A DNA stretch of 64,000 nt from Acidobacteriota bacterium (GTDB lineage: Bacteria > Acidobacteriota > Terriglobia > Bryobacterales > Bryobacteraceae): NCBI GenBank assembly GCA_029776225.1, contig JAKOTR010000033.1, positions 62,001 through 126,000 of the forward strand, written 5' to 3'. The notes under the pieces are model-generated. The model did no database searches. It saw only the letters and a program-made list of their open reading frames with translations, and had not been told where the DNA came from. A program made the position numbers and the translations under genes. Below, in pieces: positions 25,190-44,966 of the stretch (its first letter is position 1; each line of letters starts with the position of its first letter).

Positions 25190-25552
25190 CTACAGCATCA
25201 ACAGCGCGACCCCGGCCGCGACAAACGCCGCCCCGATCCAGCGCATCCTTTCGATGCGCTCCTTCAGGATCAGCCTGGCCAGGGCGGTTTCAACCAGGTA
25301 GGTGGCGGCCGTAGCGGGGATGGCAAAACTCAAGTCCGTGATGGAGAGTAAGGCCAGCAGGGAAAAGAAGGAAACCGTCATGGCGGCGATTCCGCCCAGC
25401 ACAAACCGGTTCCGCAGAACAGTTGCCACCAGCCGCCCGACCGCGCGCGGGTTGAACTCCCGCACCTCGCCGTGGCGCCTCATCCCGGCGGCGTTCAGCA
25501 AGTCCGCTGTGGCGTTGCCCGCCAGAATCAGTCCCAGCAGCAGCCATCTCAT
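25190..25552 (-). CDS. Half-size EamA/SMR-like membrane protein
   Basis: 120 residues with four predicted membrane helices, the size of an SMR or half an EamA (DMT) transporter. The last helix pair follows the EamA pattern (AIPATAATYLVETALARLILKERI then WIGAAFVAAGVALL). It overlaps the other half-size gene by 4 bp, so the two probably form a heterodimer like ArnE/ArnF. Substrate unknown. Confidence 0.7.
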   Translation of the reverse strand: MRWLLLGLILAGNATADLLNAAGMRRHGEVREFNPRAVGRLVATVLRNRFVLGGIAAMTVSFFSLLALLSITDLSFAIPATAATYLVETALARLILKERIERMRWIGAAFVAAGVALLML

Positions 25553-25983
25553 CGGCCGGCGCCGGCCTCCTGGGCCGCCTTCCGCGGTGTCGTACAGAGT
25601 TTTGTGCGCCCTACCAGAGCCGCCCCGATGGTGATCAATCCGATCCCCGCCCAGCGCGTGAGTTCGATCTCTTCATCGAGAAAAACCCGGCCCATGATGG
25701 CGGTGCCCACGTAGCTGACAGAAGTCACCGGCATCACATAGCTCAGGTCCGCCCGGCTGAGCAGCGACAACTGCGCGAGGAAGGCCAGAATCAGCACGCA
25801 CACCCCGGCGCCCACCCAGGGGTTGAGAATTCCGGCAAGGAAAGCGGGAAGCGAGGTGGTGAGCAAGGCGCCCAAATCGTTCATTCCCTGGCTGAGTGAA
25901 AAATTCCCAAAAACATTGCCCAGAACCACGGCCGCAACCAGTGCGCTGGTCCGGACTCCGCCTCGGGGCACAGCAGACTGCAT
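25549..25983 (-). CDS. Half-size EamA/SMR-like membrane protein, partner
   Basis: 144 residues, about four membrane helices, with an EamA-like second half (MPVTSVSYVGTAIMGRVFLDEEI, then WAGIGLITIGAALVG). The reading frame extends to 26022, but the Met at 25983 leaves a more ordinary N-terminus. The stop overlaps the start of the 25190-25552 gene by 4 bp. The pair could be a paired small multidrug-resistance-type exporter or lipid-sugar flippase; nothing nearby decides between these. Confidence 0.65.
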   Translation of the reverse strand: MQSAVPRGGVRTSALVAAVVLGNVFGNFSLSQGMNDLGALLTTSLPAFLAGILNPWVGAGVCVLILAFLAQLSLLSRADLSYVMPVTSVSYVGTAIMGRVFLDEEIELTRWAGIGLITIGAALVGRTKLCTTPRKAAQEAGAGR

Positions 25984-26046
25984 CCTATTCCATGGTAAAC
26001 CGCGAACGGCGGGCCGTTGCACGGCGGCGCGGGACGCCGGGCGAAC

Positions 26047-26925
26047 TCAGCTACTACGGCTCGCTCCGGCGCCCGAGGCGCGGGCGCGCTCGATCTCGGC
26101 GTTGATCTCCGCGCCCACCAGAATCGCAATGCCACCGATGTAAAGCCAGAGCAGCAGAATGATTACGCCGCCCAAAGAGCCGTAGGTCAGGTGGTAGTGG
26201 TTCGCGTACCGCAAGTAGAAGCGGAACCCGAGCGACGCCGCAAGCCAGAGCAGCACGGCTGCCTGGGCGCCCGGCGACATCCATTCCCACTTCGGGCGCT
26301 TGCGGTACGGCGCGAAGCGGTAAAGAAGGTTGACGCCGATCAACACGAAGAAAACCGCCACCGGCCACCGCCCGACCTTCCAGGCCACCTCGAACGCTCT
26401 CTGGTATCCGAACCAGCCGGCCAGGGCCGCTCCCAGCTTGCCGCCGCCAAGGATCAGCGTCTGGGAAATCACCGTGAAAACGGAAAGAGCGACGGTCAAC
26501 CCGATTGCGATCAGCCGCACTTTCCACCACGGCCGCTCATCCTTAACGTCGTAAGCTCTGTTCAGGCCCGCCGTGAGCGCCGCCATGCCCTTGGACGCCG
26601 CCCAGAGCGTCCCGATCAGACCGATCGAGAGTTTGCCCCTGCCCGCACCCGAAGAGATTTCCAGCAGCGTCTCCCGGATCAGCCGGAACGCCGAGACCGG
26701 CGCCACCCTCCGGAAGTATCCCAACAGGCTGTCCCTCAGCTCGTCGCTCTGGGCGAAATATCCGAACAGGGTAGTCAGGAACAGCAGCAGCGGAAACAGC
26801 GCGAGCAGAAAATAAAACGAAAGCTGGGCGGCCTGCCCGAGGACGTCGTCCGCGCCCACTTCGTGCCAGACCCGCTTCAGCAGCTCCTTCCAGCTCAGAC
26901 CGCCGAATTTCCGGACACCGGACAT
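26047..26925 (-). CDS. YihY/BrkB-family inner membrane protein
   Basis: 292 residues with about six membrane helices. YihY-family hallmarks are present: AAQLSFYFLLALFPLLLFL near the N-terminus, WAASKGMAALTAGLNRAYDV in the middle, and GSLGGVIILLLWLYIGGIAILVGAEINAE at the C-terminus (cited in parts). It was once annotated as ribonuclease BN, but the family is now regarded as membrane proteins of uncertain, possibly transport, function. A GGGAGGGAG ribosome-binding site precedes the ATG. It lies 33 nt after treT on the same strand. Confidence 0.88.
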   Translation of the reverse strand: MSGVRKFGGLSWKELLKRVWHEVGADDVLGQAAQLSFYFLLALFPLLLFLTTLFGYFAQSDELRDSLLGYFRRVAPVSAFRLIRETLLEISSGAGRGKLSIGLIGTLWAASKGMAALTAGLNRAYDVKDERPWWKVRLIAIGLTVALSVFTVISQTLILGGGKLGAALAGWFGYQRAFEVAWKVGRWPVAVFFVLIGVNLLYRFAPYRKRPKWEWMSPGAQAAVLLWLAASLGFRFYLRYANHYHLTYGSLGGVIILLLWLYIGGIAILVGAEINAEIERARASGAGASRSS

Positions 26926-26958: not shown

Positions 26959-28188
26959 CTACCACAGGCGGACGATGTCCTCATCCGGGTGATCGAGCGC
27001 GAGCAGAAGCAGTACGGCATCCTCGACGTGCCGGGTCACGAGAAAGTTCTGCTTGACGTGCTGGTATCCATTTTCGCCCATAACGCGCCGGAGCTCAGGA
27101 TTGCCGAGCAGTTCCAGAGCGCGATAGGCCGCGCCTTCCGGCGAGTGCACCAGGTACCCCGTCACGCCGTTGATCACCTGAAGCTTGATGCCGCCCACCG
27201 CGCCGCCGATCACGGGCTTTCTCTTCCACAGCGCCTCGCTGACCGTCAGCCCAAAGCCTTCGCGGATCGACTTCTGAAACACGATGGTGGACCCGCGCAC
27301 CAGCGCATTGATGGCCAGGTCGCTGAACGGCGGGAGCTCCAGCACGTGGATATCGGGGTCGCCCGCCGCCTCTTCGCGGACCTGCTGCAAGACCTCTTCG
27401 CCTTCCGGGTCGTCGGTCGCCCCGCCGCCCGCCAGCACGAGCTGGCAGTCGAACCGCTTTCGCACCATCCGGTAAGCGGCGATGACCCCGAGCGGATCCT
27501 TAAACCGGTCGAACCGGGAAATCTGGGTGAGGATCGGCCGCCTGGGATCGATTCCGAACCGCTCGAGCGTGCACCGGATCTCTTCCTCGTCCAGTTCGCG
27601 GTTCTTGTCGCTGAGCGGATCGATCGACGGCGGCACCATGTATTGCGGAATCGAGAGTTGCCGGGCGAAATCCGGCATCGAAAAAATGGCGCCGTCGTAA
27701 CGCTCGACGAACGGCTGGAGAAAGTCCCAGACCTTGCGCTGGGGATTCGAAATATCGACGTGGCAGCGCCATACCCAGCGCCTGTGATCGTTCCCCCTCG
27801 CCTGGATCAGTCCCGCCGGCTGCGGATCGTGGATCAAGATCACGTCGGCATCGAGGTTCATCGAACGCAGATTGGTTTCCGTCGTCTCCAGGTACGTCTC
27901 GAGCATGGCGTCCGTGATGGTCTCCGGCTTACCTTGCAGCGCATTGTGGAAAGCCTTAGTGACCTCGAAGAACGCCTGGTTGCCCTTGATCACGTCCCAG
28001 GTGGCGTCGATGCCCAGGTCCGCCAGCAGCGGCACGATCCTGGTGAGCAGCTCCGCCACGCCTCCGCCCACCGCCGTCGAATTGATGTTCTTGAACCGCC
28101 GCCCGCGCACGCGCTGGGCGAGCGCGCGGATCTCATCTACCACCGCGTGGCCAATCACGCCGGCATAATCTTCCAGTGTTACCGCCAT
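26959..28188 (-). CDS. treT: Trehalose synthase, TreT type (GT4 glycosyltransferase)
   Basis: A GT-B glycosyltransferase of 409 residues resembling archaeal TreT, which makes trehalose from NDP-glucose and glucose. Signs are the N-terminal NSTAVGGGVAELL loop, VILIHDPQPAGL, RCHVDISNP, and the C-terminal donor site with the EGFGLTVSEALWKRKPVIGG pair of glutamates. It lacks a trehalose-phosphate route partner here. It overlaps the DUF5752 gene by 10 bp. Trehalose would serve as compatible solute or reserve. Trehalose phosphorylase is the main alternative, being close in sequence. Confidence 0.85.
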   Translation of the reverse strand: MAVTLEDYAGVIGHAVVDEIRALAQRVRGRRFKNINSTAVGGGVAELLTRIVPLLADLGIDATWDVIKGNQAFFEVTKAFHNALQGKPETITDAMLETYLETTETNLRSMNLDADVILIHDPQPAGLIQARGNDHRRWVWRCHVDISNPQRKVWDFLQPFVERYDGAIFSMPDFARQLSIPQYMVPPSIDPLSDKNRELDEEEIRCTLERFGIDPRRPILTQISRFDRFKDPLGVIAAYRMVRKRFDCQLVLAGGGATDDPEGEEVLQQVREEAAGDPDIHVLELPPFSDLAINALVRGSTIVFQKSIREGFGLTVSEALWKRKPVIGGAVGGIKLQVINGVTGYLVHSPEGAAYRALELLGNPELRRVMGENGYQHVKQNFLVTRHVEDAVLLLLALDHPDEDIVRLW

Positions 28189-28859
28189 CCGCGCTTCGCC
28201 CCCAGCTCGATGATGTCTGCCTTCAATTCGTCCAGGCTCCTCAGATACGGATCCAACGAGTCGATCTCGCGCGCCAGCTCCGTTTCCCCGCGGTCCGCCA
28301 GCCAGCGCGAGAAATCGTTGGTGTTGCGCTCCAGGCGCAGCCGCGCCTCGAAAAAGTGATAGAACAGGGATTCGTTCGTGACCTGCGGAAGCCGCCGGAA
28401 GAAGTCGGCGGGATCCTGCGCGATGTTGCCGGTCGGCAGCACAAAGCTCTTCGACCGTGAGAAATAGAACTCGTCGCCGGGCGGCGCGGTTCTGCCGTTA
28501 TCCGGGTTCTCCGCGAGATAGCCCCGGATCTTGGCGATGATCTCCTCGCGCAGCGCGCGGATCGACGAAAAGGAAAGCAAGTCGATCGCGGCCAATTGTT
28601 CCGCCAGCACGTCGAGCTGAAGCGCCTCGGAGATCCACAAGGCGAAATCGTTATAGAAGAGCGGCTTTTCGAAATGGTGCGCGAGATACTGGTGGTGCGT
28701 GTGGTAGAAAATCGAGGACCCGCCCACGCGTTCCAGCCCGGCCAGCAGCTCGCTCAGGTTGCGGGCGGAGATTCCGGTCAACTGGATCAGCCGCCGCTCC
28801 GTGTAGAACTCAAACGTGGAGTCGCCGGTCAACTCTGCCTCCCTGCTCCCAACCAGCAA
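28179..28859 (-). CDS. DUF5752 family protein
   Basis: 226 residues, soluble and largely helical. It opens with FEFYTERRLIQLTGISARNL and has a conserved SSIFYHTHHQYLAHHF segment and a later ESLFYHFFEARLRL repeat of the FYH motif. This matches DUF5752, which I know as a companion of trehalose/glycosyltransferase genes, with no assigned activity. It overlaps treT by 10 bp. The start is uncertain: TTG at 28859 or TTG at 28832. The paired FYHxH motifs could form a metal or ligand site (inference). Confidence 0.7.
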   Translation of the reverse strand: MLVGSREAELTGDSTFEFYTERRLIQLTGISARNLSELLAGLERVGGSSIFYHTHHQYLAHHFEKPLFYNDFALWISEALQLDVLAEQLAAIDLLSFSSIRALREEIIAKIRGYLAENPDNGRTAPPGDEFYFSRSKSFVLPTGNIAQDPADFFRRLPQVTNESLFYHFFEARLRLERNTNDFSRWLADRGETELAREIDSLDPYLRSLDELKADIIELGAKRGWR

Positions 28860-28980
28860 ACGGGCAGAGAGCGCTTGACCGGCGAGCTGCCATTTTCAAA
28901 AACGCGAAAGGCTACCGCTTCAGGCAGCGCGGCACACGCCCGAGCGGCCCGCCATCCATTGTGCAGGTTCAATTCCGGCC

Positions 28981-29634
28981 TCACGAAATGATTTTTTTGC
29001 GCACGGCGTACAGCACGATTTCCGCCGTGTTGTGCAGGTTCAACTTTTGCATGATGTGCGTGCGGTGCGTTTCCACGGTGTACAGGCTGAGATTCAGCAG
29101 TTGGGCCACTTCCTTGTTCGACTTCCCTTCGGCAAGCAACTGAAGCACTTCGCGCTCGCGGTCGGTCAGCAGCTCGTAGGAATCCTGCATGCCACGCTGC
29201 TGCAGATATCGCATGTAGTCCTCCAGCAGCGTTTTTGCGATCGTGGGACTGAAGAACGGCCTGCCTTTGGAGACCGCCTGCACCGCCCGCACCACGTCCA
29301 GTTCCGCGGAATCCTTCAACAGGTAGCCCTTCGCCCCGGCGCTGAGCGCCCTGAGAAGATACGATTCGTCCGAGTGCACGCTCAGCATGATCACGCCCGT
29401 TCCGGGGCTTCGCTTGGCGATCTGCGAGGTGGCGTCGATGCCGTTCAGGTTCGGCATGGCGATGTCCATGATGACCACCGAGGGGTTCAGCTCCTCGACC
29501 ATGCGCACTGCTTCGCGGCCGTCGCTCGCTTCGCCCACCACTTCCATTCCGGGTTCGCTTTCCAGCACAAAGCGCAGCCCCTTGCGCACCAGGCCGTGGT
29601 CGTCCGCCAGCAGAATCCTGATCTTGTCGCTCAT
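28981..29634 (-). CDS. LuxR/NarL-family response regulator
   Basis: 217 residues: an N-terminal receiver (~1-120) with acidic pocket LADDHG, phosphoacceptor Asp in VVIMDIAMPN and Lys in GYLLKDS, then a C-terminal LuxR helix-turn-helix (~150-210, LTDREREVLQLLAEGKSNKEVA). It overlaps its kinase by 4 bp, so they form a dedicated two-component pair. The position between the channel/glycosyltransferase operon and DUF5752-treT suggests it could control solute synthesis; no binding site was identified. Confidence 0.92.
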   Translation of the reverse strand: MSDKIRILLADDHGLVRKGLRFVLESEPGMEVVGEASDGREAVRMVEELNPSVVIMDIAMPNLNGIDATSQIAKRSPGTGVIMLSVHSDESYLLRALSAGAKGYLLKDSAELDVVRAVQAVSKGRPFFSPTIAKTLLEDYMRYLQQRGMQDSYELLTDREREVLQLLAEGKSNKEVAQLLNLSLYTVETHRTHIMQKLNLHNTAEIVLYAVRKKIIS

Positions 29635-30983
29635 GCCGTTGCCGTCTCTTTCTCCTTCTGGAGCGGAATTTCGGCCGAGAGAACCGTCCCTTTGCCGGGC
29701 TGCGAGAATACCGAGAACCGGCCTCCCAGCTCCCGCACGCGCTCCTCGATTCCGATCAGGCCGAGCCCGCGCCCGCGGGACTCCGCCGCGTTGAAACCAA
29801 TCCCGTCGTCCTGAATCGTGATCGCCAGCGCGTCCCCGCCGCCGTGGACCGAAACGCGGATCTCCTTAGCCTTCGCGTGGCGCGCGCAATTGGTGAGCGC
29901 TTCCTGCACCACGCGGTACACGCAGGTGCGGTGCTGGTCGGGGAGCGTATCGAGCCGCCCCTCGAGCTGAACCGTCACCGGAACTCCAAAGCGCCGGGAG
30001 AACTCGCGCGCCTGCCACTCCACCGCCGGCCCCAGGCCCAGATCGTCGAGCATCGAGGGCCGCAGTCCCATCGCCAGGTTGCGGACCGCGCGCAGCGCCT
30101 CCTCCGACAGCCGCACCGTGGCTTCGAGCCGCGCCACGAACTCCGCTTCCGGGGCGGTCCGCACATGCCTCAGGTTGCGGATCTCCATTCGCTGCGCCGT
30201 CAACATTTGCCCGATTTCATCGTGCAGCTCCCGGGCGATGACTCGCCGTTCTTCCTCCTGCGCTTTCAGCAGTTGCTGCGACAGGCTGCGCAATTCGCGT
30301 TCGGCCGCCTCCGCCCTGGCGCGCTGCGCCTCCGATCTCTGCTCCAGGCGGCTGATCCTGTAAATGCTGCCCGCCGCCACCGCGAGTCCGAGCAGCAGGG
30401 TAACGGTGAGCAATTTGCCCACGTACAGCGGCAATTCCGATTCTTTCTGTTCGACTTCCTCCCGCTGCCGTTCCAGATTCGCGCGGTTCAGCTCGCGAAT
30501 TTCGCGCGCCATTCCCAGGGCGGCATCTCTCCGCGGCAGCACTTCCCGCCGGAGAAAGACCGTGCTGAAGGCCAGTTTCTGCTCAGGCGTCCATTCAAAC
30601 AGCGGATCCAGCGAATCCCAGTACCGCTCCAGCTCCGACTGAAGCTGGACCAATTTCTCTTTCTCGTGGCCCCCCAGGACCTCCTCCAGGGCCTTCAACT
30701 GGTTAGGGGTGGCGGCGCGGATCTCGAGCAACTGGCGCCGGTAGCTTTCCGCGGTCAGATTGGAACGGTCCAGCAGAAAGTCCCTTACCAGCACGCCGGA
30801 AAGGTGAATCTCATTGCGGACCTCGTTTAGAATGCGTTCGCCTTCCTGATACCTGCGATGGAGCGAGGAGATCTCACCGAAGATGCGTTGCGCCCGTTGA
30901 AGCTGAGTCAGCCCCGAGAGCGCAATGAGCACAATGAGGGTGCCAAAGGCAATGGCCAGAAACGGCCAGGTCCGCAATCGCAT
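29631..30983 (-). CDS. Membrane sensor histidine kinase (HisKA_3 type)
   Basis: 450 residues. TM1 (~8-27), then a helical extracytoplasmic sensor of ~160 residues (four-helix-bundle-like, FGEISSLHRRYQEGERIL), TM2 (~193-213) and a coiled coil. The HisKA_3 dimerisation domain has His in RRVIARELHDEIGQ. The ATPase domain follows, with VVQEALTNCARHA and IQDDGIGFN. This is the NarX/DesK class that partners LuxR-type regulators, matching the overlapping downstream gene. Helical sensors of this kind often respond to mechanical, osmotic or small-ligand cues, so the stimulus is open. Confidence 0.9.
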   Translation of the reverse strand: MRLRTWPFLAIAFGTLIVLIALSGLTQLQRAQRIFGEISSLHRRYQEGERILNEVRNEIHLSGVLVRDFLLDRSNLTAESYRRQLLEIRAATPNQLKALEEVLGGHEKEKLVQLQSELERYWDSLDPLFEWTPEQKLAFSTVFLRREVLPRRDAALGMAREIRELNRANLERQREEVEQKESELPLYVGKLLTVTLLLGLAVAAGSIYRISRLEQRSEAQRARAEAAERELRSLSQQLLKAQEEERRVIARELHDEIGQMLTAQRMEIRNLRHVRTAPEAEFVARLEATVRLSEEALRAVRNLAMGLRPSMLDDLGLGPAVEWQAREFSRRFGVPVTVQLEGRLDTLPDQHRTCVYRVVQEALTNCARHAKAKEIRVSVHGGGDALAITIQDDGIGFNAAESRGRGLGLIGIEERVRELGGRFSVFSQPGKGTVLSAEIPLQKEKETATA

Positions 30984-31050
30984 CCTAAACTAGCATTGTC
31001 TCGCAAATGCAGCACTGCTCGTGGGAAGTCTCGCTTCTTGCCGGCCGGGC

Positions 31051-31761
31051 TCACAGGTGGTCCCAGAGAGACCGTTCCTGCGTCTGCGCTGCGGCAGGCT
31101 GCTGCTGAGCTTCCCGGACGCGGCGCTGCACAGCGTCATGGGCTCCGATGCCCACCGCGATGCTGGCGGCCAGCACCATCCCGCCAACCAGCGTGATGAA
31201 CGCCGCCAGAAAGACGGTGCGGGCGAAATCCAGGTGGTCCGCCGCAACGACAACCGATACGAAAACGGTGAACAGGCGCACCGCCGTGGCCAGCGCCCGC
31301 GGGTACGGGATGCCGTCATTGCAGGCCCACACCAGCACGCTCCGCCCCAGGTACTGGCCCAGCCATACGCCCGCCAGAACGATGGCGCCCGCGGTGATCA
31401 GCTTCGGAAGCAGAAACACTACGGTCTCGATGATCCTGGATGTCAGCTCGGTGTTGAATGCGCTCAGCGCCGTCAGAGCGCCGGCCAGCAGAATGCCCCA
31501 AAACACGGTGGACGCCACGAGCCGGGCGGCGCGCAGTCTGCCGGAACGGCCCAGCATCGAAGACAGGCCGCTCTGGGACAGAAACTGATCGAAGCCCGAC
31601 ACATTGGTCACCCGGAGCAGCAGCAGCCGCGCCAGCTTGGCGAACAGCAGCGCAGCCAGGAAAATGACCAGGCCCGCCAACAACGGCGGCAGATAAGCCG
31701 TAGTGATTGACCCCAGACGCTCCAGCGTCCTTTCTAATATTTGCTGTAACGCCGCAATCAT
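31051..31761 (-). CDS. Conserved-TM-helix (mechanosensitive-channel-like) membrane protein
   Basis: 236 residues with about five membrane segments and no MscS beta domain. Two 'conserved TM helix' repeats are visible: LPPLLAGLVIFLAALLFAKLA with VSGFDQFLSQSGL, and LLPKLITAGAIVLAGVWLGQ with RALATAVRLFTVFV. This is the repeat found at the N-terminus of some MscS-like channels. The C-terminus is hydrophilic and Gln-rich. It overlaps the glycosyltransferase gene by 4 bp, tying a possible osmotic channel to solute synthesis. Confidence 0.7.
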   Translation of the reverse strand: MIAALQQILERTLERLGSITTAYLPPLLAGLVIFLAALLFAKLARLLLLRVTNVSGFDQFLSQSGLSSMLGRSGRLRAARLVASTVFWGILLAGALTALSAFNTELTSRIIETVVFLLPKLITAGAIVLAGVWLGQYLGRSVLVWACNDGIPYPRALATAVRLFTVFVSVVVAADHLDFARTVFLAAFITLVGGMVLAASIAVGIGAHDAVQRRVREAQQQPAAAQTQERSLWDHL

Positions 31762-33107
31762 GGTTTAGCCTCCAATTCGGCTTTTTGCATCACCCGGGAT
31801 TTTTTCCCTCCGCTTGGCCGTTCGTGCGCAGCGGTATCCTTCTGGTCCCAGCGCGCGATAAGATACGGCTTCATTCTTTCGAAGCACAGACAAAGCTCTT
31901 CGATTTTTTCCTCCACCTGCGCGGAAAACAGGTTTTCGGTTTCGATGACAAACGACGCGACCCTCGCCAGATAAAGCGGGGTGAGCGACCGCAGGAGGTG
32001 GCCGCGTTCCAGCGGCTTCGCCCTGTGGGCGCAAGCGAACTCGGCGATAATCTGGAACCACAGCTCGTCGGGCAGATGAAAGGGACCATGCCCTTCCTGG
32101 AGACTGCGGTCGAGTTTCAGCACCGCGGTCAGGGTCTCCTTGTCGAGCGCCATCGCCCAGACCTCGGGCAGTTCGCGGCAGCCCCGGTGGAATGCGCCAA
32201 GCATGCGGTCGAGGTTCACCGCGATCGGGTCCAGTCCGACGTCGAAACGGAAACCAAACAGGTCCACCGGCGTGCTTCCGGTGCGGTTCCGCCAGACCGG
32301 CTCGTACTGCTCCATCAGCAGGAACACGCTCCCCACCACCTGATGCAGCATGGCGCTGAGGTCCGCTCCCGGGTCCTTCGCATCGTGCAGCTTCGCTCCG
32401 AGAAAGCTCTGGCAGATCCGGAAACCCTCGGCGATGGCGATTGTCGTCATCCAGATGTCTATGCCGTAGCGCGCGACGTCGGTTTCCCAGTCGTTCCTTT
32501 GCAGGTAACGGTCGATCAGCGCCGCCGACATGCCGAAGTCGCCGCCGATCGGCTGGCGCACCTGGGCCCCGTAGAGCGCCCGCGTCAGCGGATACACGAT
32601 GCTGTTCGTGATGGTGCCGTCGTACTTGTGCCGGTGATAATAAGGCGCCACGAAATCGTAGCCGGCATATAGAACCGGGCGCAGCAGCAGGTCGATCCAT
32701 TCCGGGGTAATCGACCGCAAATCGGAGTCGATCACCGCGCACGCCTTGGCGCCTAGCCGCTGCGCGATGGCAAAAATCATCCGGAACGCGCTGCCCTTCC
32801 CCGGAATCCCGTGATAGGGGAACGACAGCCGGTGCACGGGCAGCATGGGCGTGGATAACAGCAACAGCCGGGCATCGTCGAGTTGTGTCGATAGCACCGC
32901 CTCCCGCGTGCCGTCCGTGGATCCACCGTCCGAGTTTACGATTACCGCCGGAAACTGCGGAAAGTACTTGGCGAGCCCCGCCTGGGCGGCCCGCACAACG
33001 TGACTGATCGTCCGGACGTTGTTGAAGCTTGGAATGCCGATCACAATATCGGCCGTTTGGATACGCTGCAAGGCTATAATCGCCTGTTCAGAGAGCAGGC
33101 TGTCCAC
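31758..33107 (-). CDS. GT-A glycosyltransferase, mannosylglycerate-synthase-like
   Basis: ~449 residues, no TM. The N-terminal GT-A fold has DIVIGIPSFNN, VNSDGGSTDGT, the PGKGSAFRM donor loop and a DSD metal motif in AVIDSDLRSITPEWID. The middle (PYYHRHKYDGTITNSIVYPLTRAL, QPIGGDFGMS, YGIDIWMTTIAIAEGF; cited in parts) follows the layout of Rhodothermus mannosylglycerate synthase. The likely product is a glycosylglycerate or related solute; donor and acceptor are unproven. I use GTG 33107 because GGAAGGGAG lies five nt upstream, although the frame opens at 33131. Confidence 0.75.
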   Translation of the reverse strand: MDSLLSEQAIIALQRIQTADIVIGIPSFNNVRTISHVVRAAQAGLAKYFPQFPAVIVNSDGGSTDGTREAVLSTQLDDARLLLLSTPMLPVHRLSFPYHGIPGKGSAFRMIFAIAQRLGAKACAVIDSDLRSITPEWIDLLLRPVLYAGYDFVAPYYHRHKYDGTITNSIVYPLTRALYGAQVRQPIGGDFGMSAALIDRYLQRNDWETDVARYGIDIWMTTIAIAEGFRICQSFLGAKLHDAKDPGADLSAMLHQVVGSVFLLMEQYEPVWRNRTGSTPVDLFGFRFDVGLDPIAVNLDRMLGAFHRGCRELPEVWAMALDKETLTAVLKLDRSLQEGHGPFHLPDELWFQIIAEFACAHRAKPLERGHLLRSLTPLYLARVASFVIETENLFSAQVEEKIEELCLCFERMKPYLIARWDQKDTAAHERPSGGKKSRVMQKAELEAKP

Positions 33108-33139
33108 TCGATCTCCCTTCCTGCTCAGCATACCCCTTT

Positions 33140-34369
33140 CTATGCCGCGCAGGCTTCGGCTGGGGCAGCCGTATCCTCGGCGGCTGCTTCAAGAAGAAGA
33201 TCGAAAAACTCGGGAATCGCCGACAGCACACGGTTCCAGCTCGGGATCAGCGGCCGGCCGAGCGGGTCCTCGCAAAACTCCTCGGCCGCCTCCTGGAGGC
33301 TCTTGGCGAAGGTCGCGACGGCGAGCTCCTCAGCGTGGCGGTCGAAGCACAGGCCGTTCAGCAGGGCATCGGCATAGTAGCGGTCGATGGTGTCTTCGGC
33401 AAGCCGGACATAGCGCACCTGCAGGCTGCGGAAGTGATCCCGGGTAAGCACGATTCCCTCCCCGGCCATGGTGCGGAACAGCGACTTGGAGATGTCCACC
33501 GTCATGCGCCGCAGCCCTTTCGTCGGATCGTTCTCCGAAAGGCTCTGGTGTTTGTGCTCGTAGTTGTCGGCGAGGTCCACCTGGCACACCCGGGCCGTGC
33601 TGCAGTTGCGGAAAACCTCGGCCAGAACGCCTACCTCCAGCCCCCAGTCGCCCGGAATCCGGTTGACGCGCGCCAGTTTCGCCTTCATCGCAAACTCGCC
33701 GGCCAGTGCGTAGCGGAAGCTGTCCAGAAACTCGAGGAACGGGGCACCGGACACCATGCCCTTCAGGGCCCTGATCAGCGGCGTAATGAACAGCCGGGTG
33801 GCGCGGCCGTGCATGCGGTCCGTCGTTCTCGCGTAGTACCCCTTGCAGAACTCGAATCCCAGGTTCGGGTTCGCAACCGGGTAGCACAACCTGGCCAGCA
33901 TGCGCCGGTCGTAGTTCAGGATGTCGCAGTCGTGCAGGGCGATGACGTTGCAGTCGCCGCGGGCCAGCAAATAGCCGTAGGCCAGCCAGCACGACCGGCC
34001 CTTGCCGTCCGGGCCAGCCGAAAGGTTCGCATCTTCCAGCATCCGGAAAAGCGCCTGCGTCCGCTCGCTGTCGACCCAGAGGATGGTCACGTTAGAGAAG
34101 TCTTTGAAAAATTCCCGCACGTGCTCGTACTGGCGGGCATTGGCGCGGCCCAGAACAACCACGATCCGCCGGAGGTATCGCACCCGCGCCAGTTCCGCCC
34201 GTATGCGAATCATGGCTGAGGTCTCAAACTCCGAATACAGGGCCGGCAGAACCAACCCGATGGGATTCTGCTCGGCAAACTCCTCGAGCTCAGCCTCCAG
34301 CCTGGGCAGACCGTCAGGGTTCAGGCGGTGGAGCGTCGTGACCATTCCGGTCTGGTAAAAATCGCCCAT
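33140..34369 (-). CDS. GT-A glycosyltransferase, glucosyl-3-phosphoglycerate-synthase-like (GT81)
   Basis: 409 residues. GT81-like features: GLVLPALYSEFET, the GKGRSCWLAYGYL donor loop, the metal motif in ALHDCDILNYDRRM, then FCKGYYAR, ALAGEFAM and the acceptor-site stretch IPGDWGLEVGVLAEVF. The VDLADNYEHKHQSL metal-binding His region is also present. GpgS makes glucosyl-3-phosphoglycerate, the precursor of glucosylglycerate; no GpgP phosphatase is in the window. The start at 34369 is fixed by AAGGAGG (AGGAGG at 34375-34380); the longer frame to 34474 is probably untranslated. First gene of the operon with the next glycosyltransferase and the channel. Confidence 0.78.
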   Translation of the reverse strand: MGDFYQTGMVTTLHRLNPDGLPRLEAELEEFAEQNPIGLVLPALYSEFETSAMIRIRAELARVRYLRRIVVVLGRANARQYEHVREFFKDFSNVTILWVDSERTQALFRMLEDANLSAGPDGKGRSCWLAYGYLLARGDCNVIALHDCDILNYDRRMLARLCYPVANPNLGFEFCKGYYARTTDRMHGRATRLFITPLIRALKGMVSGAPFLEFLDSFRYALAGEFAMKAKLARVNRIPGDWGLEVGVLAEVFRNCSTARVCQVDLADNYEHKHQSLSENDPTKGLRRMTVDISKSLFRTMAGEGIVLTRDHFRSLQVRYVRLAEDTIDRYYADALLNGLCFDRHAEELAVATFAKSLQEAAEEFCEDPLGRPLIPSWNRVLSAIPEFFDLLLEAAAEDTAAPAEACAA

Positions 34370-34466: not shown

Positions 34467-35027
34467 TCAGGCACTAACGCCCGCTGCTTCGGTTTCCAGC
34501 CGCCAGTGATCCCAGGCAGCGGTTATTATGCCGACAAGTTCCTCTGACTCGAAGGGCTTGGCCAGCACATCGTACCCGCCTGCGTGAACAACCTCGTTCC
34601 ACAGGCGATCGTCCGCGCGGTTCGCCACCACGATGAGCCGGGGCGCCGGACGCAGCGACGCTTTCTGCACTGCGGCCCAGACGTCCTTCCAGCAGCCGCC
34701 CGGAAATGTCCTTTCCACGACGACTACCGGTATTGTTGCCTTTCGCAACAGGACATCCGCCCGGCGGAGGCTGCGCGCCCGGAGCAGGCGAAAATCAGGC
34801 TTCCGCAGTATGCTCCTGAGGGCCGCGTGGTCGTTGTCGAAAGGACCTACCAGCAACAGCGGAATCTGCGGGCGGTCCCGATGGACGGCACGTTGATGCT
34901 CCGCGATCCAGATCCTGGCTTCGACATCGAAACGGCCCACGCGACTTTCCCGCGGGACAATGCGCTCCAAGAATCTCCTCCGGTGTCCGATTTTCTTAGG
35001 ATACGAACCCGGCCCTGGCGTGCCCAT
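34467..35027 (-). CDS. Degenerate response-regulator receiver (pseudo-receiver)
   Basis: 186 residues. An unusual basic N-terminus (~1-53) precedes a single receiver-like domain: first strand PLLLVGPFDNDH, then PVVVVERTFPGG where the phosphoacceptor Asp is Glu (residue 105), then LIVVANRADD and the conserved Lys in DVLAKPFES (157). The Asp-to-Glu change could mimic the phosphorylated state or mean loss of phosphotransfer. No output domain. It lies 97 nt upstream of the GT81-like gene on the same strand and may regulate that operon by protein contact. Confidence 0.65.
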   Translation of the reverse strand: MGTPGPGSYPKKIGHRRRFLERIVPRESRVGRFDVEARIWIAEHQRAVHRDRPQIPLLLVGPFDNDHAALRSILRKPDFRLLRARSLRRADVLLRKATIPVVVVERTFPGGCWKDVWAAVQKASLRPAPRLIVVANRADDRLWNEVVHAGGYDVLAKPFESEELVGIITAAWDHWRLETEAAGVSA

Positions 35028-43992: not shown

Positions 43993-44078
43993 TTTGGATC
44001 AGGATAACAGCGGCGGGTCGAAGGGGGGAACCCGGAGAAACGTCCTATTCCGAGGAGTTGGCCTGTTATATTCAAGAG

Positions 44079-44966
44079 GTGATTCGAAGCGCAATTGTTC
44101 CGGTGGCGGGCCTTGGCACGCGATTGCTGCCCGCTACAAAGTCCCAGCCGAAAGAAATGCTTCCGGTGGCGCGGAAGCCGATCGTGCAGTACGTAGTGGA
44201 AGAACTGGCGGCAAACGGCATCGACCAGGTGCTGTTCATCACGGGCCGCAACAAGACTTCCATCGAAAATCACTTCGACAGCGACCCCGAACTGCTGCGC
44301 ACGCTCAACTCGGCAAACAAGCAGGAACTGCTCGAACAACTGGCGTTTGAGGACCTCAAGACGCACTTTTTCTACACGCGGCAGCGTTTCCAGCGCGGGC
44401 TGGGCGATGCGGTGCTGTGCGGAGAGAATTTCGCCGGCGAGGAGCCGTTCGTGGTGGCGCTGGGCGATTCGATTCTCGGGCTGCACGCGAATTCGCAAAC
44501 CGTGGCGCGCATGATCAAGGTGTTCGAGGACCGGCGGGCGAGCGCCGTGATCGCGGTGGAGGAAGTTCCGCCCGAGCAGACCATGCATTACGGCATCGTG
44601 CAGCCGGCTGAAGACGGGGAAGGTGAGGCCTTCCGGATCGTGAGTCTGGTGGAGAAGCCGAAACCGGAAGAGGCGCCCAGCAATCTCGCCATTGCGGGGC
44701 GTTACGTGTTCTCGCCGCTGATCTTCGACATGATCCGGCGGGTGCAGCCGGATCACAGGGGCGAAATCCAGCTCACCGACGCCATCCAACTGATGTGCGA
44801 GGAAGGCAAGCGCGTGCTGGCGTTGAAGCTGCCGCCCGGTGAGCGCCGTTACGACATCGGTAATTTTGCGAGTTACTTCGAGACGTTCGTCGAGTTCGCG
44901 CTGGCGGACCCGGTCCACGGCCCCTGCCTGCGCGCGTTCCTGGAACGCATCCTTCAAAAATCCTGA
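44079..44966 (+). CDS. galU: UTP--glucose-1-phosphate uridylyltransferase
   Basis: Makes UDP-glucose for glycans and possibly for the glucosyltransferases at 27-34 kb. ~295 residues. Nucleotide-binding signature IVPVAGLGTRLLPATKS, then KEMLPVARKPIVQYVVEE, ALGDSILG metal site and SLVEKPKPEEAPSNLAIAGRYV. The frame opens with TTG at 44058, but the GTG at 44079 gives the usual GalU N-terminus; neither has a clear ribosome-binding site. The next gene starts on the base after its stop. Confidence 0.95.
   Translation: MIRSAIVPVAGLGTRLLPATKSQPKEMLPVARKPIVQYVVEELAANGIDQVLFITGRNKTSIENHFDSDPELLRTLNSANKQELLEQLAFEDLKTHFFYTRQRFQRGLGDAVLCGENFAGEEPFVVALGDSILGLHANSQTVARMIKVFEDRRASAVIAVEEVPPEQTMHYGIVQPAEDGEGEAFRIVSLVEKPKPEEAPSNLAIAGRYVFSPLIFDMIRRVQPDHRGEIQLTDAIQLMCEEGKRVLALKLPPGERRYDIGNFASYFETFVEFALADPVHGPCLRAFLERILQKS

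Follow-up and report, generated by a model that had tools for sequence, protein, structure and literature searches.

We describe a cluster of seven minus-strand genes at positions 26959-34369 of a 64,000-nucleotide window (the whole stretch of DNA that was analysed, G000:C80:62001-126000, where G, C and L label genomes, contigs and loci) from a 5.18 Mb genome in 115 contigs. Read along the minus strand, the cluster begins with gpgS (33140-34369), whose ATG is preceded by AAGGAGG and whose product is a GT81-type, glucosyl-3-phosphoglycerate synthase-like protein, followed by the gene for a glycosyltransferase with the fold of mannosylglycerate synthase, which we call GT2 (31758-33131), and the gene for a membrane protein that resembles the transmembrane part of MscS without the MscS beta domain, which we call MscTM (31051-31761). 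Then come a sensor histidine kinase of the HisKA_3 type (29631-30983; HisKA_3 and HATPase_c above the Pfam cut-offs), a LuxR/NarL-type response regulator (28981-29634; Response_reg and GerE above the Pfam cut-offs), a DUF5752 protein homologous to OrfY (28179-28859) and TreT, a trehalose glycosyltransferring synthase (26959-28188). All seven open reading frames were confirmed where the first-pass annotation of this DNA had placed them, and Pfam and NCBIfam agree with the kinds of gene it named. Its description of 4-10 bp overlaps or short gaps fits the overlaps of 10, 4 and 4 bp and the single 8 bp gap, but not the distances of 67 bp between the MscTM and kinase genes and, provided that the TTG start of DUF5752 is correct, of 121 bp between the LuxR and DUF5752 genes.

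Relatives of the cluster were followed in a close set of 61 genomes (60 relatives together with the genome of the window) and in a phylum set of 199 genomes, own included. In addition, genome contigs were searched with a profile of a 22-sequence GT2 alignment, which gave at least 597 stretches (at least 552 relatives). The best 80 loci were taken; they are labelled Acidobacteria, Nitrospirae, deltaproteobacterial, Zixibacteria and a few others, and they divide into 51 closer loci (L051-L100 and L102, mostly Bryobacterales/Acidobacteria) and 29 distant loci (L101 and L103-L130). Gene counts in these loci are lower bounds, because many of them are cut by contig ends.

GpgS matches NF040724 (GpgS_Meth) with 351.5 bits (E 5.5e-105) and does not reach the equivalog cut-off of 700, which is reached in none of the 61 close-set genomes and none of the 199 phylum genomes. 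It aligns with the mycobacterial GpgS structures (E 0.00037), and K123, D147, D149, T191, E245 and H272, that is the Lys, DxD, acceptor Thr, Glu and His, stand opposite the mycobacterial residues and are invariant in 16 sequences. There is no phosphatase inside the window's cluster; an MPGP-family HAD phosphatase (224 bits, TIGR01486 cut-off 164.75) is encoded on another contig, at G000:C62:87084-87869, where it adjoins another LuxR-type regulator gene. Many relatives have a HAD-IIB gene between the MscTM gene and the kinase gene or beside gpgS, and the phosphatase of L030 is above the MPGP-family cut-off (244.2 versus 164.75 bits). A GH13 sucrose-phosphorylase-like gene (L173:10575-12329; 182.9 bits, cut-off 334.4) directly follows the phosphatase and GpgS genes in one locus; as a guess, its product could be a glucosylglycerate phosphorylase.

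The family models nearest to GT2 match below their thresholds (PF21969 MGS_GT 25.9 bits, cut-off 27; NF010496 41.8 bits, cut-off 262). Pfam MGS_GT matched nowhere in the genome scans, controls included, so its silence there is uninformative. A 35-sequence GT2 profile compared with the PDB found mannosylglycerate synthase (MGS; 2y4k) at E 2.7e-6, ahead of GpgS at E 0.0011. The AlphaFold2 model (predicted local distance difference test, pLDDT, 85.9) agrees over residues 29-426 with MGS at Z 34.3 (root-mean-square deviation, rmsd, 3.3) over 354 residues, which is the whole fold including the C-terminal domain, and with GpgS at Z 20.6 (rmsd 2.7) over 223 residues. A plain duplicate of GpgS was considered and ruled out, because the two proteins share 23% identity across part of the length and GT2 has a different best fold.

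Residues K112, D135, D137, R167 and D171 of GT2 align with K76, D100, D102, R131 and D135 of MGS, and I174, T175, D225, H249 and M261 align with I138, T139, D192, H217 and M229. D100, R131, D135 and M229 of MGS are residues with functional roles. In PMC2581804, K76 and D192 are assigned to an ion-pair network, D102 and H217 to metal binding, and I138 and T139 to the acceptor carboxylate. All ten aligned positions are invariant in the 80 best loci, and likewise in the 12 loci above 600 bits (the window included) among the best 30 GT2 places of the phylum set; in the 18 lower-scoring loci two sequences are gapped at K112, D135 and D137, and the remaining seven positions are kept in all 18. Where GpgS has an Arg (R189) next to its acceptor Thr, GT2 has Thr173, and Tyr220 of MGS stands opposite Lys252 of GT2. 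The conserved residues, together with Thr173 in place of the GpgS Arg, lead us to expect that GT2 is active on an acceptor that carries glycerate, probably with no phosphate at that position. Divergent copies were also seen: three GT2 paralogues (L042:9260-10489, L044:11295-12605 and L045:9137-10420) have damaged DxD or other catalytic positions and still have MscTM next to them, and in phylum genomes of the same class (for example G154 and G223) the GT2 matches are confined to the C-terminal half (profile positions 180-420) in frames of 403-466 amino acids, which suggests a diverged N-terminal half.

MscTM matches PF05552 (MS-channel conserved TM helix) with 25.9 bits (cut-off 22) and NF033912 with 50.4 bits (cut-off 100). 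No other Pfam match and no MscS cytoplasmic beta domain was found in it, and its model (pLDDT 84.8, predicted template modelling score 0.55) is all helical. Foldseek gave no match at E <=0.001, MscS appearing at E 3.1, and in a second structural comparison the two highest rows were MscS, at Z 9.9 and 9.5 against 7.1 for the row after them; these values lie under the caution line that applies to helical models. For these two reasons channel activity of MscTM is treated only as a lead; the channel-like label of the first-pass annotation goes no further than a likeness to the transmembrane part of MscS.

In 79 of the best 80 loci the MscTM gene lies at most 160 bp downstream of GT2, and in the exception, L100, the contig ends 135 bases past GT2. 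With 1.5 kb flanks, it lies beside 11 of the 12 phylum GT2 places scoring above 600 bits and beside none of the 18 places of 420-495 bits. In the high-scoring L146 (L176) MscTM is placed before GpgS and not beside GT2, the order in L176 being MscTM-GpgS-phosphatase-glycerate kinase-GT2; L170 reads GpgS-MscTM-phosphatase, with no GT2 in the stretch. A GT2 copy in L041, flagged with one in-frame TGA, has no MscTM that could be found. A universal GT2-MscTM pair is ruled out by the 18 lower scorers, L146 and L041. Considering these low scorers and the orders of L176 and L170, the partners of MscTM, in part of the family, are the sugar-glycerate genes in general and not GT2 alone.

TreT carries PF21269 (192.8 bits, cut-off 27) and Glycos_transf_1 (74.3 bits, cut-off 26.4), and in the PDB it matches the trehalose phosphorylase/synthase 6zj4 (448 bits, residues 5-397) and the TreT structure 2x6q (371.9 bits). 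The TreT_Thcocales equivalog cut-off, in a model named for Thermococcales, is not reached (403.6 versus 775 bits). The DUF5752 protein matches PF19027 with 215.1 bits (cut-off 23), and its profile finds PDB entry 4cso at E 1.7e-44; the entry is titled 'OrfY protein, transcription factor', the transcription-factor label being that of the depositors. We take 4cso to be a protein of Thermoproteus tenax, and all three structures (6zj4, 2x6q and 4cso) to be archaeal. Both families also match in the control genome of Sulfolobus acidocaldarius. TreT and DUF5752 occur in the same 10 of the 61 close-set genomes, adjacent in all 10, and eight of these genomes also have GT2. In the best 80 loci TreT is visible in 13, with DUF5752 just before it in 12, the thirteenth TreT beginning at a contig end. 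A neighbour of another kind was seen in L029, where a gene right after TreT (L029:1181-3451) encodes a GT20 trehalose-phosphate-synthase domain preceded by an N-terminal region that by eye resembles a membrane sensor.

Among the 61 close-set genomes, 19 have full-length GT2, 23 have GpgS, 20 have strong phosphatase matches, 10 have TreT and 10 have DUF5752; MscTM reaches at least 250 bits in 20, with an additional edge fragment in G039. For these counts two weak GT2 matches (G057, 217 bits; G006, 31 bits) were dropped, leaving 19 of 21, and two weak phosphatase matches (G053 and G060; 75 and 79 bits), so that 20 of 22 remained. Each of the 19 GT2 genomes has GpgS. The phosphatase is found in 16 of them, and the other three genomes are 62, 81 and 64% complete. 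In the phylum set GT2 was counted from a line of 390 bits upwards, chosen after seeing the list, which leaves 31 of 61 matching genomes, spread across 22 families; three GpgS matches (G086, G161 and G198; <=35 bits) were dropped, leaving 33 of 36, as were phosphatase matches below 90 bits, leaving 33 of 88. GpgS occurs in 28 of the 31 GT2 genomes, against 33 of all 199, and the phosphatase in 29 of the 31, a number that includes the weaker phosphatases of G071 and G099 (64 and 57 bits), added back because they adjoin gpgS; without both it would be 27 of 31. The GT2 genomes without GpgS are G095, G108 and G148 (80, 79 and 97% complete).

The neighbourhoods show the cluster to be modular, with GpgS-phosphatase, GT2-channel, DUF5752-TreT and kinase-LuxR as the modules. 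The 51 closer loci have GpgS in 37, the phosphatase in 23, the kinase in 22, LuxR in 21 and TreT with DUF5752 in two; in the 29 distant loci GpgS is found in 14 (in three as a fragment at the start of a contig), the phosphatase in 11, TreT in 11 and DUF5752 in 10. GpgS, GT2, MscTM and TreT stand together in 2 of the closer and 9 of the distant loci. Further gene clusters in the distant loci, named from one representative each, are TreY (13 of 29), TreZ (11), GT20 trehalose-phosphate synthase (6), glycerate 2-kinase (6) and GlgC (6), and in L122 a TPSP-type fusion (GT20; 712.7 bits, cut-off 634) directly precedes GT2-MscTM. Chance adjacency is ruled out by the recurrence of the gene pairs in relatives and in other phyla, and homologues scattered singly, named beforehand as what would count against the locus, are not what is seen: linkage is conserved across genomes and phyla. 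The expectation that the gene order is kept in relatives is borne out for the modules, but the full seven-gene order was found, among the loci read, in the window and two others only, L058 (same contig as L029) and L085, where in both cases a phosphatase gene on the opposite strand interrupts the series.

The kinase/LuxR pair looks like a local addition, because 22 and 21 of the 51 closer loci have the window-type kinase and LuxR, and none of the 29 distant loci has either; the proposal that the locus has its own sensor thus does not extend to the distant loci. A regulator site shared by gpgS and DUF5752-TreT was looked for, and none was found. An ATAC-N8-GTAT dyad (7 of 8 positions) lies at -64 to -67 of the gpgS start in L057, L062, L066, L085 and L088, that is in 5 of the 37 closer gpgS upstream regions but not in that of the window, and 0.9% of random segments score equally high; this dyad is possibly a LuxR site. 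Scans for promoter-like sites (0 against 1.4 expected) and terminator-like sites (12 against 8.6 expected) were of no help.

Taken as a whole, the locus is read as a compatible-solute synthesis-and-release cassette of a Bryobacteraceae-type acidobacterium, a reading we regard as fairly probable. It is built on gene content, folds, active-site residues, co-occurrence and adjacency, from which we infer every substrate and product, the channel role and the regulation. GpgS would join glucose from nucleoside diphosphate (NDP)-glucose to 3-phosphoglycerate, and the MPGP-family HAD phosphatase encoded elsewhere in the genome would strip the phosphate to give glucosylglycerate. GT2 would then most likely add a further sugar, giving a solute of the mannosylglucosylglycerate or glucosylglucosylglycerate type. 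The main reason for placing GT2 downstream of glucosylglycerate is its near one-way dependence on GpgS and the phosphatase; the extension step, considered by itself, is put forward tentatively and with more doubt than confidence. TreT with its DUF5752 partner would form trehalose from NDP-glucose and glucose, MscTM may let solutes out on hypo-osmotic shock, and expression may be under the control of the kinase/LuxR pair. Families, folds and linkage support the earlier view of a compatible-solute locus and the identity of TreT, and fold and residues bear out the GT81-like and GT78-like labels; the count of three solute syntheses does not stand as given, considering that GT2 may act on what GpgS makes and enlarge it, rather than form a solute of its own.

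Several observations speak against this reading. The GpgS score is half of the equivalog cut-off. GpgS occurs without GT2 in 4 of the 23 close-set genomes that have it and, at the 390-bit line, in 5 of the 33 in the phylum set (G106, G164, G185, G214 and G253), three of which carry GT2 matches of 266-289 bits. Fisher values for co-occurrence overstate the certainty, because the genomes are related and not independent. TreT is contiguous with the rest in the window and in only 2 of the 51 closer loci, many of which are cut by contig ends, and MscTM is missing beside all the lower-scoring phylum GT2 places. Finally, the carboxylate site kept in GT2 is the one that MGS uses for glycerate itself, so that GT2 might make a separate sugar-glycerate. 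The explanation nearest to that of the first-pass annotation departs from the cassette with an extending GT2 in the GT2 step alone: GT2 would be a one-step sugar-glycerate synthase (MGS or Ggs type) that uses free D-glycerate in parallel to GpgS, and the products would be two monoglycosyl glycerates and trehalose. The nearest fold and residues of GT2 are indeed those of a one-step enzyme, Thr173 in place of R189 suits an unphosphorylated acceptor, and glycerate 2-kinase is present in 6 of the 29 distant loci and stands between phosphatase and GT2 in L176. However, a self-sufficient enzyme would need neither GpgS nor the phosphatase, and GT2 is seldom without the one (3 of 31) or the other (2 of 31 phylum genomes), so we consider this explanation rather unlikely.

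The other two explanations change the role of the product or of GT2. The sugar-glycerate could be the primer or head group of an envelope or storage glycan and not an osmolyte, with MscTM as the membrane partner of GT2. There is a precedent in the mycobacterial GpgS, which according to PMC2581804 serves methylglucose lipopolysaccharide (MGLP) synthesis, and the constancy of MscTM after GT2 in 79 of 80 loci, without the beta domain of a full MscS, would fit a partner of this kind. On the other hand, of the gene clusters that recur in at least 5 of the 29 distant loci, those that were identified are trehalose genes, glycerate kinase and GlgC, and the best structural matches of MscTM are to MscS; we hold a glycan role to be improbable. 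Alternatively, the main role of GT2 could be to activate a solute synthase without catalysis of its own, MscTM being the channel, as the glycosyltransferase (GT) of T. tenax has no synthase activity alone and yet activates TPSP (PMC3634074). The TPSP-type fusion directly before GT2-MscTM in L122 and the damaged paralogues that retain an adjoining MscTM point in this direction. The T. tenax GT is, however, a GT4 enzyme with another fold, no TPSP is found among the seven window genes, and the ten catalytic positions of GT2 are invariant in the best 80 loci, which makes an activator role very improbable.

Around the cluster, a GalU-like UTP-glucose-1-phosphate uridylyltransferase gene lies about 10 kb away on the plus strand (44058-44966). 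The GalU noted at 44 kb in the first pass is thus present as a GalU-like gene, its 305.7 bits being below the TIGR01099 equivalog cut-off of 326.8; it could possibly supply the donor, and its membership in the cluster is not part of our claim. Just before gpgS, window positions 34467-34925 encode a weak response-regulator-like receiver domain, for which, among 22 relative loci, L042 alone has a weak match. Past TreT on the same strand (25190-26925) lie a YihY/BrkB protein gene, after a 33 bp gap, and genes for two small membrane proteins that by eye are EmrE-like.

The cluster is a new combination of known kinds of gene, including one uncharacterized enzyme family, GT2. A wider proposal, which we find possible though distinctly doubtful, is that GT2 represents an undescribed family that converts glucosylglycerate to a diglycosylglycerate and that makes up a synthesize-and-release unit with an MscS-transmembrane-only partner. 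In Acidobacteriota, Nitrospirota and others this unit would be linked with the synthesis of trehalose; to our knowledge diglycosylglycerate-type solutes have not been reported in these groups. If this is true, soil and subsurface bacteria with few cultured members would gain a stress-solute pathway that can be tested, an uncharacterized glycosyltransferase family would come with a narrow prediction of its acceptor, and the T. tenax operon would have a counterpart in bacteria that likewise combines solute synthesis with a channel-like protein. Literature searches, including those on DUF5752 and OrfY, found no description of this cluster among the papers listed.

Among known systems, a route from GpgS through MggA and a phosphatase to mannosylglucosylglycerate was reportedly described in Petrotoga mobilis by Fernandes in 2010. 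It likewise has GpgS, a second glycosyltransferase and a phosphatase, and the corresponding gene set (GpgS-like, second GT and MPGP-family phosphatase) is present in the window's genome; the likeness drawn here is one of gene kinds. We know of no linkage of that route to a channel, trehalose or a sensor. The solved TreT and OrfY proteins are clear homologues of the window's TreT and DUF5752, with the difference that the window's pair sits inside a sugar-glycerate cluster. The GT78 enzyme MGS (2bo4, 2y4k), given in PMC2581804 as being from Rhodothermus marinus, shares with GT2 the whole-length fold and the metal, donor and acceptor-carboxylate residues; it differs in that GT2 is about 15-17% identical to it and stays just below the Pfam MGS_GT cut-off. 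The nearest precedent is msc-gt-tpsp of T. tenax, in which, according to PMC3634074, a short MscS-transmembrane-like protein and a GT are combined with trehalose synthesis, and synthesis under stress with efflux through the channel on relief is proposed. The source states that, of the TPSP/TPS loci, those of Thermoproteus and Pyrobaculum alone have this arrangement, and it also gives T. tenax a TreT pathway. The window is alike in having a GT, an MscS-transmembrane-like protein and trehalose synthesis. However, the T. tenax GT belongs to GT4 with a GT-B fold, which rules it out as a homologue of GT2 with its GT-A MGS fold, and its trehalose is made by TPSP, in contrast to the window, where there is no GT4-type partner and no GT20 among the seven genes and the corresponding place is taken by TreT.

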